From: Gammaproteobacteria bacterium
GTDB lineage: Bacteria > Pseudomonadota > Gammaproteobacteria > Steroidobacterales > Woeseiaceae
Assembly (NCBI GenBank): GCA_029863305.1
Contig: JAOTVR010000006.1
Location: 1 to 64,000, forward strand
DNA: 64,000 nt
Reading direction: 5' to 3'
A program made the translations under genes and the position numbers. Position 1 is the first letter of the stretch. The number at the start of each line of letters is the position of its first letter. Shown here in pieces: positions 42,903-49,498 of the stretch. The notes beneath the pieces were generated by a model, which ran no database searches, was not told the origin of the DNA, and saw only the letters and a list, made by a program, of their open reading frames with translations.

Positions 42903-44309
42903 CTAAGGAGCCTCCGGCCGAAAGCGGGGCTCGGTGATCGCCATCTCGGTGACGGGGCCGTAGCGGGCGACGTCCTCGCGGATCAGCTCGGCATCCCCCA
43001 GGATCACGAAGACGAGGTCATCCGGCGAGGGATAAACCGCGTTGATGACGGAGCGAATGGTTTCGCTGTCCGCCATCGCCACCGCATTTCCGTAGTCATT
43101 GATGAACGACTCGTCGAGTCCGAGCGCGTCGAGTTCGGCAAACTGGCCCGCGAGCTGTGAAGCCGTTTCGAGTTCGGGCGGGAACTGCCCGAGAATGTAG
43201 TTCTTGCCGGAGGCAATCGTCTCTTCGTCGAAGCCTTGTTCGCGCATTCGCATAAGCAGCGCCAGCGCCAGATCGATCGCAGCGACGGTCGATTCTGTTT
43301 TTGTGTAGGAAACCATTGCGACATAGCCAGGCATCGAGGGGCGCAGCAACACCGAGCGCGCACCATAAGTCAGCCCCGCCCTGGTGCGCAGCTCGTCCAT
43401 CAGTAACGAGGTAATGCGGCCGCCAAACAGGGTGTTTGCGATATCGAGTTCAGCGCGCTGCGCATAGGCGATGTCGACTCCGACATTGCCTATCCAGAAA
43501 TACGTCTGCGTTGCACCGGGCTTGTCCACGAGCAGGACGCGCCGGCCTTCGATCGGAAGCGGCGGCTCAATCTCCGGCAAAGGCGCGGCGGCCGGCTCCC
43601 AGTCGGCAAACGCAGCCGTCAGCTTTTCGGTCATCGAGGCCGTATCGAAATCCCCGGCGACAGCGATGATCAGCCGATCCGAGCCGACGTGATCGGCAAA
43701 ATACCCGCGCAGATCGCGATGCGTGATTTTCGCCAACGACGCTTCGTCACCGTCAATGGCCGTACCGTACGGGTGCTCATCGAACAGGAATGCCGTGCCG
43801 TAAAGCGGGTTCAAGCGCCGGAGGTCGCCGTCCTTCGCGGCCCGAATCAGGTTGATCTGTCGATCGCGGAGTTTGTCCATTTCGGCCGCATCGAGGGTCG
43901 GCGACCGCAACATGTCGGCGAGCAACTCGATCATCAGGTCCGCGTCACGCGCCAGGAACTCGGCGGAGATCGTTATGGACTCGAGGTCGGCACGCGCTGA
44001 CAGGGAACCACCAACGGCATCTATGCTTTCGGCGAATTCGGCGGCGCTGCGATCGCCGGCGCCCTTTTCGAGCAAGCCCGCGAGCAGGCTCGCCAGACCG
44101 GCGCGGTCGTCCGGGTCGGTGACGGCGCCACCGCGAATGATGGCCTTGAGGCCAATAAGCGGAACGTCGTGTTTTTCGTGCACGATCAAAATGACGCCGT
44201 TGTCGAGCTGTACGCGGTGCGCGTCCGGCAGGGTCACGCCTTGTGCGGACACTGCACCAGTGTACAGGATGGCCCACAGCAGAAAGACCAGCGGTCGCAA
44301 GCGGATCAC
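42903..44309 (-). CDS. M16-family peptidase-like subunit lacking the HxxEH zinc motif
   Basis: Signal peptide; M16 fold with LASLLAGLLEKGAG at the zinc-motif position; retains RAGLTYGARS (R/Y motif). Confidence 0.85.
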   Translation of the reverse strand: MIRLRPLVFLLWAILYTGAVSAQGVTLPDAHRVQLDNGVILIVHEKHDVPLIGLKAIIRGGAVTDPDDRAGLASLLAGLLEKGAGDRSAAEFAESIDAVGGSLSARADLESITISAEFLARDADLMIELLADMLRSPTLDAAEMDKLRDRQINLIRAAKDGDLRRLNPLYGTAFLFDEHPYGTAIDGDEASLAKITHRDLRGYFADHVGSDRLIIAVAGDFDTASMTEKLTAAFADWEPAAAPLPEIEPPLPIEGRRVLLVDKPGATQTYFWIGNVGVDIAYAQRAELDIANTLFGGRITSLLMDELRTRAGLTYGARSVLLRPSMPGYVAMVSYTKTESTVAAIDLALALLMRMREQGFDEETIASGKNYILGQFPPELETASQLAGQFAELDALGLDESFINDYGNAVAMADSETIRSVINAVYPSPDDLVFVILGDAELIREDVARYGPVTEMAITEPRFRPEAP

Positions 44310-45967
44310 TGTGTGCTCTCCTCGGGGGGCGCGCGCAGGACGCCAACCGTCATGTTATTTGCATGGAATACCCTGGCAGCGACGTCGCGCAGCTGTTCGG
44401 CCGTGACAGCCTCCAGGTTTGCGGGCAGGTCAAACAGCATCTCGTAGTTACCGTAGAAAACCTCAAAGCGACCGAGCGCGGCCGCTTTGCCGTCGATCGT
44501 CGCAAGCTCACGCCAGAATTGCGCGAGGATAATGTTCCGCGCTTTCGCCAGCTCGGCCTCCGTGACGCCCTCGGTGCCGACGCGCAGCAGCTCCTCGAGC
44601 ACGCGCGCTTCCGCCACGACCGGGTCGGCGCCCGGCGGAAGCGTCAGGTAAAAATACGCCAGCCCCGGATCGAATCCCTCCGACTGGTAAGCACCGATGG
44701 ACAGCGCCAGGCCCTCGTCCTCAACCAGCAGGCGATGCAGGCGCGACGATTCTCCTTCAGTGAGAATGTTGAGCAACAGGCTCATCGGCAGTGTTTCCGG
44801 GTCAGTCGCGCTGGCCGCATGAAAAGCCATGTGCAACAACGGCGTCTGTGCTGCCGCTTCGACGAGAACGCGACGCACGCCGAGTTGCTCGGGCTCGATC
44901 GTGCGTACCGGCGGCGGCGGCTCCTGTGCCGGCGTCGAGGCGAAAAACTTGTCGGCAAGCTTGAAGATTTCCTTTGACGTGACGTCTCCGCTAACGATCA
45001 CGGTGCGATTATTCGGCGCGTAGTAGGTGCGGTAATAATTGATCAGGTCGTTCTCGGTCCATGCTTCGATATCGGATGGCCAGCCGATCACCGGGAACTG
45101 ATACGGGTGTGCGACAAAAGCGGTTGCCTGCACCTGTTCGGCGAGCTTCCAGAAGTTGTTGTTGTCGATACTCGAGCGACGCTCCGAATACACAACCTCG
45201 CGCTCGCTGTTGACCACCTCGGCCACGGTTGTGAGGTTCTGCAGGCGATCACCCTCGAGGTCGAAAATAGTCTCGAGCGCGGAGCGCGGGAACCAGTCCT
45301 GATAAACGGTGACATCCTCCGAGGTGTAGGCGTTGTTTGCGCCGCCCGCGGCCTCCATTGTGCGGTCAAATTCGCCGGGTTCGCGGTTCGACGTGCCAAG
45401 AAACATCATATGCTCGAAGAAATGGGACAGCCCGGTAATACCCGGGTATTCATTGCGGCCGCCGGCACGGACAAAGTTATACAACACCACGTTCGGAATA
45501 TCGTGATCCGGCCAGACGATGACCTTGAGGCCGTTATCGAGCGTCAGCGAGCGTATTTCAGGCGGTGACTTCTCGGACACGGGCGCAGCGCCTTCCGGAA
45601 CACCCGGTACCAGAAACTCGAAGGTCGGCAGTAAGCGCTGGCCAAAAACCGCGAGAACGCCGAGCACGAGAAACACGGCAACGGCCGCATTGAGCTTCTG
45701 CCCGGTTTTGTAGACGATGGACTGTGTCTGATCGACATCGGCGGCTTTCTTGAGCCCGGCCGGCGTTATTTCATAGGTCCAGGCAAATAACAACGCGACC
45801 GGAAAACCGACCGCCAGAATGAAATAGACGAAGGTGTTGGTCCAGGCCGGTACAGTCACGGCCGGCTGAATAGCGTCGACGAACCAAATGATCAGCCAGC
45901 CTGCTACGGCGTATAGCAGTGCGACCTTGAAAACGTTTCGACGGCGAAGTTCTGCGAACAGGGCCAT
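44306..45967 (-). CDS. Catalytic M16-family metallopeptidase with N-terminal membrane domain
   Basis: N-terminal LRRRNVFKVALLYAVAGWLIIWFVDAIQP...WTYEITPAGLKK membrane domain; then GLSHFFEHMMFLGT (HxxEH) and NSEREVVYSE. Confidence 0.88.
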   Translation of the reverse strand: MALFAELRRRNVFKVALLYAVAGWLIIWFVDAIQPAVTVPAWTNTFVYFILAVGFPVALLFAWTYEITPAGLKKAADVDQTQSIVYKTGQKLNAAVAVFLVLGVLAVFGQRLLPTFEFLVPGVPEGAAPVSEKSPPEIRSLTLDNGLKVIVWPDHDIPNVVLYNFVRAGGRNEYPGITGLSHFFEHMMFLGTSNREPGEFDRTMEAAGGANNAYTSEDVTVYQDWFPRSALETIFDLEGDRLQNLTTVAEVVNSEREVVYSERRSSIDNNNFWKLAEQVQATAFVAHPYQFPVIGWPSDIEAWTENDLINYYRTYYAPNNRTVIVSGDVTSKEIFKLADKFFASTPAQEPPPPVRTIEPEQLGVRRVLVEAAAQTPLLHMAFHAASATDPETLPMSLLLNILTEGESSRLHRLLVEDEGLALSIGAYQSEGFDPGLAYFYLTLPPGADPVVAEARVLEELLRVGTEGVTEAELAKARNIILAQFWRELATIDGKAAALGRFEVFYGNYEMLFDLPANLEAVTAEQLRDVAARVFHANNMTVGVLRAPPEESTQ

Positions 45968-45976
45968 ATTTGCATC

Positions 45977-47155
45977 CTAACCCAGCAGCCCCTCCCGCCG
46001 ATACAGGCGGGCACAGATCCATGTCAGCATGGCCCCTATTGCCAGCGTGCTCAGGACCGAAATTGCGGCGTGCAGCAGGTTGACCGGCTCATTCTTGATC
46101 ATGTCCACGAGCAGCAGGTGCTGGCTCAGGCTGGGTACGAACATGAATTCCAGCCGGGGCCGCAGGGTCAGAATGCTGACAATCAAAATTGGCAGTGTCG
46201 GCGCAATCAGCACGACGCTCAACCAGGTTTGCGCTTCCTTGTAGCTCTTGGTGAAAGATGCGACGAGCGTCATGAGTGAGGCGCCGAGCAGCATAAAAGG
46301 CAAGAGCAAAAGAAACGCCGCGAAGACGGTGCGGGCGCCGAAGTTCGGCGTCATGCCGAGCTGTTCGAGCGGCATGAACTTCAGCGCGACATAGAACGAA
46401 CCAAGACTGAGCAGCAGCGACATGGCCATGAACAGGCAGGTTGCCGCTATCTTGCCCAGCATCAACTGATTTCGAGTGACGGGCAGAGAAAGAATCGGTT
46501 CCAGCGAGCCGCGCTCACGTTCGCCCGCGGTCGTGTCGATTGCGAGGTACATGCCACCCATCAACAGCGCGAAGATAAAAAAGTAACTCATCATGCCGAG
46601 CAACATTGCAGAGCGTCCGCTGGGCGTCGAGACATCGACATCGTCGACGTTGATGGGCCGCAAGACCATCGGGCTGACGCCGCGTGCGACAAGCCGCATT
46701 GCGGCAAGCTCCTGGCTGTAGGAGTGCAGCGCGGTACGCACCCGGCGAGCATCACGCTCGGCCTGAGTATTCGCACGATCGGATATCAGGTCGACCTGCG
46801 CCGGAATCGAGCCGGCAAGTTGCTCGCCGAAGGACTCGGGCACGAAAACGACCACGTCGTGTGCGCCGGTCTTGACCGCCTCGACCGCAGCGGCGCGATC
46901 CATCGGTCCGGCAACAACGTCAATGTTATGGCTGCGCAGATAGCGCATCAGATTCGGTGCATGTTCCTGGCCGATAACGGGGACCTCGAGGTTGCGCTCG
47001 ATGTCGTCGAGAGAGCGCTCGATCGACAGGTTGATGACAAACGCGAACAACAGCGGGCCGAATAAAGGACCCATGATCAGAGCGGAGGCGAGGGTGCGAC
47101 GATCGCGAAAGTTGTCGACGACCTCTTTAACAAAAACCGTAATCAGGGTGCGCAT
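45977..47155 (-). CDS. ABC transporter permease (NatB/ABC-2 type)
   Basis: VFVKEVVDNFRDRRTLASALIMGPLFGPLLFAF; six predicted TMs; GERERGSLEPILSLPVTRNQL. Confidence 0.87.
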   Translation of the reverse strand: MRTLITVFVKEVVDNFRDRRTLASALIMGPLFGPLLFAFVINLSIERSLDDIERNLEVPVIGQEHAPNLMRYLRSHNIDVVAGPMDRAAAVEAVKTGAHDVVVFVPESFGEQLAGSIPAQVDLISDRANTQAERDARRVRTALHSYSQELAAMRLVARGVSPMVLRPINVDDVDVSTPSGRSAMLLGMMSYFFIFALLMGGMYLAIDTTAGERERGSLEPILSLPVTRNQLMLGKIAATCLFMAMSLLLSLGSFYVALKFMPLEQLGMTPNFGARTVFAAFLLLLPFMLLGASLMTLVASFTKSYKEAQTWLSVVLIAPTLPILIVSILTLRPRLEFMFVPSLSQHLLLVDMIKNEPVNLLHAAISVLSTLAIGAMLTWICARLYRREGLLG

Positions 47156-47883
47156 TACTCGGGACCCACCATCTCGATGGCGCGCACGAATGCATCTTCG
47201 AGATCGTCACGGCCTGTACGTTGGCGTATGCCGTCGGCGGAGTCATCAATCGCCACTTTGCCGTTCGCAATGATGACGATGTCGTCACACAATGCAGCGA
47301 CTTCCTGCATGACATGGCTGGAAAACAACACGCAGCGACCGGCGTCCTTGAGTTTGAGTATCAAATCGCGCAATGAACGCGTCGCCATCACGTCAAGGCC
47401 GTTGCTGGGCTCGTCAAGAATGATGTTTTGCGGGTTATGTACAAGCGCGCGCGCGAGCGCGACCTTGGTTCGCTGCCCGTGCGAGAAGCCCTTGCTGCGG
47501 CGCTCGGCAAAGTCGCCGATCTCGAGCAGATCGACGATGCTCTCAACGCGCTCCTGCAGCGTGTGATCGTCGAGTCCGCAGAGCTTCGCGTAGTAGGCAA
47601 TGTTTTCTCTCGCGGTCAGGTGCGGGTACAGGCCGGCACCGTGTGGCAGTGCGCCGATGCGCTGTCTGGCCTGCAGGCTTGCGGTGACGACATCGGCGCC
47701 ATCGATGCTGGCACTGCCCTGGTCGGGTTTGAGTACCGTGTACAGGATGCGCAAGGTGGTCGACTTGCCGGCGCCGTTGGGTCCCAGCAGGCCGGTGATC
47801 TTGCCGTCGGGCGCGTCGAAGCTGACACCCTGCACCGCACGAATCTTGCCGAAGGACTTGTAAATGTCGTTAACGCGAATCAC
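47155..47883 (-). CDS. ABC transporter ATP-binding protein (NatA-like)
   Basis: LLGPNGAGKSTTLRILYT, FSHGQRTKVALARALVHNPQNIILDEPSNGLD. Confidence 0.9.
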   Translation of the reverse strand: MIRVNDIYKSFGKIRAVQGVSFDAPDGKITGLLGPNGAGKSTTLRILYTVLKPDQGSASIDGADVVTASLQARQRIGALPHGAGLYPHLTARENIAYYAKLCGLDDHTLQERVESIVDLLEIGDFAERRSKGFSHGQRTKVALARALVHNPQNIILDEPSNGLDVMATRSLRDLILKLKDAGRCVLFSSHVMQEVAALCDDIVIIANGKVAIDDSADGIRQRTGRDDLEDAFVRAIEMVGPE

Positions 47884-49337
47884 GGCATCGGCCCGGAGAA
47901 ATCAAGGAAGAACGGCATGACAAAGGCGTCTTGCATGCACTCGGTATCAAGCGCGCCGGGGTCGGCGCTTGCCACGAATTCGGCGATCAGCTTTGGCATG
48001 CAGCCGGCGGCAATCTGGCCGTGACCCTGGCGCTCGTTGATGATATGGCGGGCGTTGCCGAGATCCACGGCGGCGAGTTCGGCGTAACGCGGCGGTGTAA
48101 TAGGGTCGGCATCGCCCGATAGCAACAGCACCGGCAGGTTGGTCGCCAGCGGCTCGCGAAAGCCGTCGTCGATCACGCCGCGCGGCCAGATCGCGCAAAT
48201 CGACTCCAGCGCCTGAAGCTGCAAGGCGCCTATATAGCTGGCCTCCAGCGCAGCATAGTCGATCGTGTCGCGATCGACATACGGCAGGTCTTCGGTGCAG
48301 ACAACGGCATTGTGCATGCCAAGCGAAAGCGCGTCGGCGAGGCTGCTGACGGTCAGCTTGAACTGCGCAGCCAGTGGCAGGAAGTTGCCATCTGCGGCCT
48401 CGTGTATCAGCAGCGGCATGATCGCCATGGATTGTGGCTGATAAGCGAGCAAGCGAATGGCAGCGGCAAGCTCGTCACGGCCAAAGTCCAGCACCTCGGG
48501 CCGGCCCGTGAGCGGATCGGCCAGCGTCACGGCGACAGCGCCCTCAGCGACCCGCGCTCGTATCGACTCGAAATCGAGGTCGACCTCCGGAAAGCGTTCG
48601 TTGCAATCGGTGTCTGCCGCACAACGGGCGAGAATGCTGTCGAGCGCACGCTGCGCTTCTGTCGCGATTTCAGGGCCGAGCGGTATTTGCGGCGGCACGA
48701 CACCATCGAGAATGATCGTTCGTGTCGTGTCCGGGTAGCGACGCGCGTAGTGTTGCGCAACTCTTGTGCCGTAGGACGTGCCGAGCAGGTTCAGCGCTGG
48801 ATAGCCGAGAGCCTGACGCAAGGCCTCAAGATCGGTAACAGCGACGCTGGTCGTGAAAAATTGCGGGTCGTGCGGTAGCTGCTCGAGGCACGTTGTTGTG
48901 AATTCTCGCGTTTGCTCGTCGCTGTATTGCCCCTCGACGATGTCGTCGTCGAACGGGCAATCCATGCGAGCAGATTCGCCCGTTCCGCGTTGATCCAGCA
49001 GCAGGATGTCGCGTTCGCGGCGCACGGCCTCGAACGCCGAATAGTATCCTGAGTAGAACTGAATCGCGCTGCCGCCAGGCCCACCCGCAAGCGGCACGAA
49101 CGGATCGCGTTCCGGCTCGAGGTCCAGCGCGGGTACAACGGCCACGCGAAGCTCGATCTGCCCGGCGCCAGGATCGGCGGGGTTGAGGGGGCGCGCGAAA
49201 CTGCCGCAGCGTGCCGCGATGCCCGGATACCCCGGCCCGGCGCTGATGCGGCAATCACTCAGCTCGAGAGCCGGTGCAACGCTTGATGCCGTGGTTGCGG
49301 CCAGCAGCAACACCGATAAGACTGTGATACGAGTCAT
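47880..49337 (-). CDS. Secreted alpha/beta hydrolase, S33/tripeptidyl aminopeptidase-like
   Basis: Signal peptide; GGPGGSAIQFYSGYY, LLGTSYGTRVAQHYARRYPDTTR, TAP-like C-terminus. Confidence 0.87.
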   Translation of the reverse strand: MTRITVLSVLLLAATTASSVAPALELSDCRISAGPGYPGIAARCGSFARPLNPADPGAGQIELRVAVVPALDLEPERDPFVPLAGGPGGSAIQFYSGYYSAFEAVRRERDILLLDQRGTGESARMDCPFDDDIVEGQYSDEQTREFTTTCLEQLPHDPQFFTTSVAVTDLEALRQALGYPALNLLGTSYGTRVAQHYARRYPDTTRTIILDGVVPPQIPLGPEIATEAQRALDSILARCAADTDCNERFPEVDLDFESIRARVAEGAVAVTLADPLTGRPEVLDFGRDELAAAIRLLAYQPQSMAIMPLLIHEAADGNFLPLAAQFKLTVSSLADALSLGMHNAVVCTEDLPYVDRDTIDYAALEASYIGALQLQALESICAIWPRGVIDDGFREPLATNLPVLLLSGDADPITPPRYAELAAVDLGNARHIINERQGHGQIAAGCMPKLIAEFVASADPGALDTECMQDAFVMPFFLDFSGPMP

Positions 49338-49498
49338 AAATAATCGCAGAATCCCTGGGCGCAGCAATCTTGGCCACATGGCCGGCACAAGTAAAGCCGG
49401 GAAAGTAAGCCCGAATCAGCAGAAGCGGCGGCTGCGTTGTGGCGGCGCCAGAGCTAAGCGACTAAAATGCGCCGCCCCTGTTGCGCATTATTGGACCA

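Follow-up and report, generated by a model that had tools for sequence, protein, structure and literature searches.

A catalytic M16 peptidase joined to a three-transmembrane (3-TM) module is encoded in the window analysed here (the whole 64,000-nucleotide stretch of a gammaproteobacterial contig; Table 1), and the same fusion occurs in 52 species genomes (MAGs) of one genus-level lineage of the Woeseiaceae, a family that ranks with the most abundant bacteria of sediments and has been described as proteolytic (PMC7082342). Together with the product of the next gene, M16B, the fusion protein (M16A) probably forms a periplasmic zinc peptidase heterodimer of the SPH2681/SPH2682 type, whose catalytic half is tethered to the inner membrane by a captured module with a cytosolic loop that probably makes a contact of its own. 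I regard this as a real and conserved variant, confined to one genus, of a heterodimeric M16B peptidase that is already known; its novelty is modest and it is not a new kind of system. Its architecture and history are well supported and its predicted topology is likely.

The fusion protein and its partner

M16A is read from one stop-free frame, with its ATG 9 bp beyond the upstream permease's stop codon. Both M16 domains score well above their Pfam cut-offs (PF00675, 71 bits against 22.3; PF05193, 127 bits against 23), the HxxEH motif is intact, and the 80-residue spacing from its histidine to E262 is the same as that from H51 to E131 in SPH2681 (review PMC12731061). The claim of an earlier note, made from the sequence alone, that a catalytic M16 peptidase is here fused to a membrane module therefore stands, and the interval that it singled out, 45640-45967, covers residues 1-109, almost the entire module. 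M16A appears to be an M16B peptidase with an intact active site and is expected to be proteolytically active. Its AF2 model (mean pLDDT 82, with the M16 part well modelled) has 3ami as its best Foldseek match (TMt 0.91). Two other assignments were rejected on NCBIfam equivalog cut-offs: the EF-P modification peptidases YfmH/YfmF (73 bits against 250, 50 against 285) and PqqF or pitrilysin (40.5 bits against 320; 39.7 against 765).

Table 1. Features of the M16A-M16B locus (positions in the window; residue numbers refer to M16A unless M16B is named).
Feature	Position	Strand	Basis or remark
TAP-like alpha/beta hydrolase, same operon	47880..49388	-	PF00561/PF08386; conserved neighbour in genus
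NatA-like ABC ATPase, same operon	47155..47883	-	PF00005 E 8.6e-33; conserved neighbour in genus
NatB-like ABC-2 permease, same operon	45977..47155	-	PF12698 E 1.9e-27; conserved neighbour in genus
M16A fusion protein, 553 aa, 3-TM module + predicted catalytic M16B peptidase	44306..45967	-	Single ORF, Pfam, AF2, Foldseek
N-terminal membrane module, residues 1-116	45620..45967	-	11 further copies in own genome; alignment
TM1, residues 12-32	45872..45934	-	Hydropathy in all fusions; AF2 helix 12-33
TM2, residues 44-64	45776..45838	-	Hydropathy; AF2
Predicted cytosolic loop YEITPxGLKKxxDVDQTQSIVYKTGQKLN, residues 65-93	45689..45775	-	Conservation, dN/dS
TM3, residues 94-114	45626..45688	-	Hydropathy; AF2; remnant anchor in two module-less relatives
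Variable linker, residues 117-138	45554..45619	-	Identity 0.44 (residues 115-138); low pLDDT at 113-121
Peptidase_M16 catalytic domain, residues 165-292	45092..45475	-	PF00675 E 1.3e-19
HFFEH zinc motif, residues 182-186	45410..45424	-	H182, E185, H186 invariant in 52/52
E262, third zinc ligand	45182..45184	-	Invariant in 52/52
Peptidase_M16_C domain, residues 303-479	44531..45061	-	PF05193 E 1.2e-36
M16B partner subunit, 468 aa, signal peptide	42903..44309	-	Best PDB match 3amj_B, inactive subunit, E 2.8e-26
M16B R308...Y315 substrate-binding pair	43365..43388	-	Aligned with 3amj_B

The start of M16B overlaps the stop of M16A by 4 bases, and all 73 M16B homologues (73/73) have both R308 and Y315 and none (0/73) has HxxEH. 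PMC8960859 and PMC12731061 give HxxEH on one subunit and the R/Y pair on the other as the signature of active heteromeric M16B peptidases. The best PDB matches of M16A and M16B are, respectively, the active and inactive chains of 3AMJ, that is, SPH2681/SPH2682 of Sphingomonas sp. A1 (3AMJ/3AMI; E 6.5e-71 and 2.8e-26). These too are encoded by adjacent genes and consist of an HxxEH...E catalytic half and an R/Y inactive half, but the matched chain, 34% identical in the Foldseek alignment, has no counterpart of M16A residues 1-140. The heterodimeric zinc protease PA0371/PA0372 (4NNZ) has the fold of M16A-M16B and is a pair of the same type (E 1.7e-60, TMt 0.91), but the match begins at M16A residue 139 and the chain lacks a counterpart of the module. 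The best reading of the two sequences is that M16A and M16B would form a periplasmic heterodimeric M16B peptidase. The pairs that process RiPP leaders (AlbF/AlbE, Bcn-gP1/Bcn-gP2 and PttP1/PttP2) also combine an HxxEH subunit with an R/Y subunit, but the available excerpts describing them mention no TM module, and the neighbourhood of the M16A-M16B pair showed no recognisable RiPP precursor or maturase.

Throughout the genus the N-termini of M16B are signal-peptide-like. In the sister-group relatives L101, L102, L110 and L117, M16B has a lipoprotein-like signal (ASC, TGC, SAC), possibly a separate route of the pair to the membrane. At least one relocation to the membrane has probably occurred among heterodimeric M16B peptidases, and this lipoprotein-like partner may mark a second, which hints that their substrates sit at or near the membrane. 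The adjacent inactive partner, the apparent replacement of an ancestral signal peptide and the unusually conserved cytosolic loop all go beyond the earlier reading of this locus.

Origin, distribution and history of the module

Residues 1-116 have no above-cut-off match in Pfam or NCBIfam and none in PDB; a match to NADH5_C reached 14 bits against a cut-off of 28 and was taken as hydrophobic noise. The genome itself holds 11 further copies of the module (E 3.5e-31 to 4e-8), mostly N-terminal on TPR proteins, several of them with a TolB_N/FlgO-like domain; in the TPR-type copies the module is followed by a TolB/FlgO-like region, SIAVLPFxNMSxDPEQEYFSDG, and then by TPRs. M16A shares with these membrane proteins the module LRRRNVFRVA...FAWxYEITPxGxK...DVD...S...TGxKL at about 30-48% identity to most copies, with the three TM segments and conserved motifs all present by alignment and hydropathy. 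The two differ in their C-terminal parts, which in the TPR proteins is the TolB-like/TPR region and in M16A the peptidase: according to Pfam, M16 stands downstream of the module and the TolB-like/TPR region is absent. The suggestion that this N-terminus is a membrane module otherwise borne by TPR proteins is thus upheld, and a check for an N-terminus unlike that family found instead motifs that align with the TPR-protein copies.

A class-wide sample of 274 genomes yielded the module in 7 (E 1e-10). Among the module-bearing ORFs readable at the returned loci one is an M16 fusion, in the same genus, and the others carry the TolB-like region as far as their sequence could be read. One genome of that sample (G134, contig C94) has about nine module-bearing proteins in tandem within about 18 kb. 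One of the 11 copies in the window's own genome lies at the C-terminal end of a Ser/Thr protein kinase without TPRs (contig C93, L018:7082-8356(-); Pkinase E 7.8e-46). In a protein on contig C156 of that genome (L019:3-1226(+)) the module is preceded by a region of about 330 aa that is ATPase/STAND-like by eye and has no Pfam match at 1e-3.

The fusion itself has a much narrower distribution. Across the family 57 of 107 genomes match M16A at E 1e-100, all from one genus out of 12, and 52 of these 57 matches align from residue 1-4 (G036 being counted via two contig pieces); in the remaining five the alignment begins further in, owing to contig ends or to absence of the module. A scan of genome contigs recovered the fusion from about 40 MAGs that stem from independent studies and in many cases bear the label Woeseiaceae. 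The 32 genomes from the family's other genera contain no fusion; their M16 paralogs are distant, with no more than 34% identity over the M16 part, and mostly lie in frames of 800-1000 aa. In samples of the class (369) and phylum (399), M16 matches from outside the genus never extend into the TM1-TM2 part of the module; the best three candidates per genome were scored there, so a distant fusion may have escaped. None of 43 plasmid records matches over most of M16A, and among the matches listed the alignment starts at residue 111 or later. The papers searched, all from open-licence PMC, do not describe the fusion, which is weak evidence of novelty: the M16 review PMC12731061 does not contain the word "transmembrane", neither of two Woeseiaceae papers mentions M16 in its main text, no paper linking Woeseiaceae to M16 was found, and none on the module. 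The earlier impression that this architecture is uncommon agrees with the searches, all of which place it in a single genus-level lineage, and a search for signs that it is already widely catalogued returned a genus-restricted protein absent from the papers searched.

Relatives at 55-63% identity (Myxococcus, Corallococcus, Steroidobacter, Arenimonas, Lysobacter and Thermomonas) have signal-peptide-like N-termini and no module, and the best explanation of these sequences is that the module took the place of an ancestral cleavable signal peptide on the catalytic half. In a maximum-likelihood tree of the M16 domain all fusions fall in one 44-row clade (support 100/100), which also contains three module-less rows (L088, L089 and L090). 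Module presence and absence require three changes on this tree, most simply one gain and two losses; the tree was rooted by midpoint and does not by itself settle gain versus loss, but the N-termini help. In the sister rows L089 and L090 the N-terminal sequence aligns with TM3 of the module (e.g. AAVAVVVVLAAIAMIVIRLSNE vs AALAVLTVLAAVAMIADRLLPE; mean score z 6.5 and 6.9, 0 of 500 shuffles), whereas five signal peptides used as a control gave z -0.9 to 0.8. TM3 is the sole hydrophobic segment in both, and given this remnant their ancestor had the module. The N-terminus of L088 was rejected as a module remnant (z -0.7) and is a signal peptide. The module is not essential everywhere, since three sequenced relatives in two lineages keep the peptidase with the module wholly or mostly gone. 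The clade offers a natural experiment in domain capture: the module was apparently gained once and lost twice, with remnants left behind, and the constraint on it shifted measurably.

Constraint on the module and its possible role

No segment of the fusion is as conserved as the cytosolic loop, whose mean pairwise identity is 0.86 against 0.68 for the M16 part. Median dN/dS is 0.18 for the module, 0.17 for the M16 domain and 0.066 for the loop, values that are rough because synonymous sites are near saturation in most pairs; judging from these ratios, the module is under purifying selection equal to that on the peptidase. Among fusions (n=23) identity is 0.60 in TM1, 0.35 in the periplasmic loop, 0.63 in TM2 and 0.87 in the cytosolic loop, against 0.96, 0.79, 0.79 and 0.52 in one set of TPR orthologs from the same genus (n=16) and 0.78, 1.00, 0.79 and 0.78 in another (n=7). 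Constraint is reversed in the fusion, TM1, TM2 and the periplasmic loop having relaxed after capture and the cytosolic loop being most conserved; the reversal is clear against the n=16 family and milder against the n=7 set, which is small and has a loop as conserved as its TM1.

This inversion suggests a specific contact on the cytosolic side, and the module may be more than an anchor, because constraint peaks in the loop and is relaxed in TM1, TM2 and the periplasmic loop. The loop is dispensable in some lineages, since L088, L089 and L090 have lost it. Tentatively, and with the odds against it, the module could be a transmembrane control element: its nearly invariant loop would take a signal from a cytosolic or membrane protein, or dock on it, and so regulate the periplasmic M16 domain. 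If so, M16A would span the membrane and be under regulation, in a peptidase family whose other known members are soluble or organellar, and the reversal of constraint would reflect how a shared module was re-purposed.

A credible alternative, though I consider it somewhat improbable, is that the module serves as a signal-anchor, acquired from one of the genome's own gene families, whose role is limited to export and tethering. It would account for the relaxation of TM1, TM2 and the periplasmic loop relative to the TPR-type copies, and for the lineages that have lost most of the module, of which L089 and L090 retain a single TM3 and L088 has a plain signal peptide; the lipoprotein-like M16B signals would be another membrane route. 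However, a bare anchor has no need of a loop conserved above the M16 domain (0.86 vs 0.68; dN/dS 0.066).

The genomic context raises another candidate for the contact. The block mnmG / TAP hydrolase-NatA-NatB-M16A-M16B / mnmE is conserved in the genus, the TAP-like hydrolase having a hydrophobic, signal-peptide-like N-terminal stretch. Outside the genus the M16A-M16B pair alone was recognised, and the TAP hydrolase-NatAB operon was not seen at the module-less relatives there; Rfam and promoter/terminator scans of the operon gave nothing above expectation. The module might link the peptidase with the ABC-2 transporter of the upstream genes, and peptides would then be cut during their passage across the membrane. 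That this operon is genus-conserved and unseen around module-less relatives elsewhere speaks for such docking, as does RiPP maturation, in which M16 pairs adjoin transporters (AlbE/AlbF; see PMC12731061). It is nevertheless unlikely. Two streamlined genomes, G004 and G011 (90% and 89% complete), have no NatB homologue genome-wide at E 1e-10 and yet keep the module and cytosolic loop intact, whereas L088, L089 and L090 keep NatAB and have lost the loop. As each occurs without the other, NatAB and the module are uncoupled, and the loop-keeping genomes without NatB weaken docking as the cause of loop conservation. At the corresponding loci of these genomes of about 1.5 Mb (L060 in G004, L093 in G011), module-M16A and M16B adjoin mnmG (and mnmE too in L093), the TAP hydrolase, NatA and NatB genes having been lost there.

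Predicted topology and proposed mechanism

Three hydrophobic segments, near residues 12-32, 44-64 and 93-113, are present in each of the 38 fusions examined; K/R residues occur in the N-tail and the TM2-TM3 loop and are scarce in the TM1-TM2 loop. The AF2 helices (12-33, 43-66 and 84-112) agree with this at modest confidence (pLDDT about 50-80). From hydropathy, the positive-inside rule and the AF2 model, M16A is likely to be N-in/C-out. With the N-terminus inside and an odd TM count the M16 domain would lie in the periplasm, a location that fits the signal peptides on the partner and on module-less relatives; because the N-termini of module-less M16A relatives and of the genus's M16B are signal-peptide-like, both halves should be exported. 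The inner-membrane tether foreseen in the earlier note is the best reading of this topology and remains a prediction.

In the mechanism that I favour, a 3-TM module from the lineage's abundant TolB-like/TPR membrane proteins would have supplanted the signal peptide of the catalytic half in one Woeseiaceae genus, and would target M16A to the inner membrane, N-in/C-out, and hold it there. On the periplasmic face the M16A clam-shell would pair with secreted M16B and cut peptides near the membrane, and the conserved cytosolic loop would probably contact a cytosolic or membrane protein and so position or regulate the enzyme. Cleavage of the linker could free the enzyme from the membrane.

Some M16 peptidases are cytosolic, and with an even number of true TM segments the domain would act on cytoplasmic peptides, but this is very improbable given three hydrophobic segments in every member, the positive-inside pattern, the signal peptides on relatives and partner, and the lone TM3 remnant with its positive N-tail. 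Finally, the window comes from a MAG-like assembly of 200 contigs, but the chance that two genes were fused by an assembly or annotation artefact is negligible: the same single ORF recurs in 52 genomes, many from independent studies, with purifying selection on either side of the joint.
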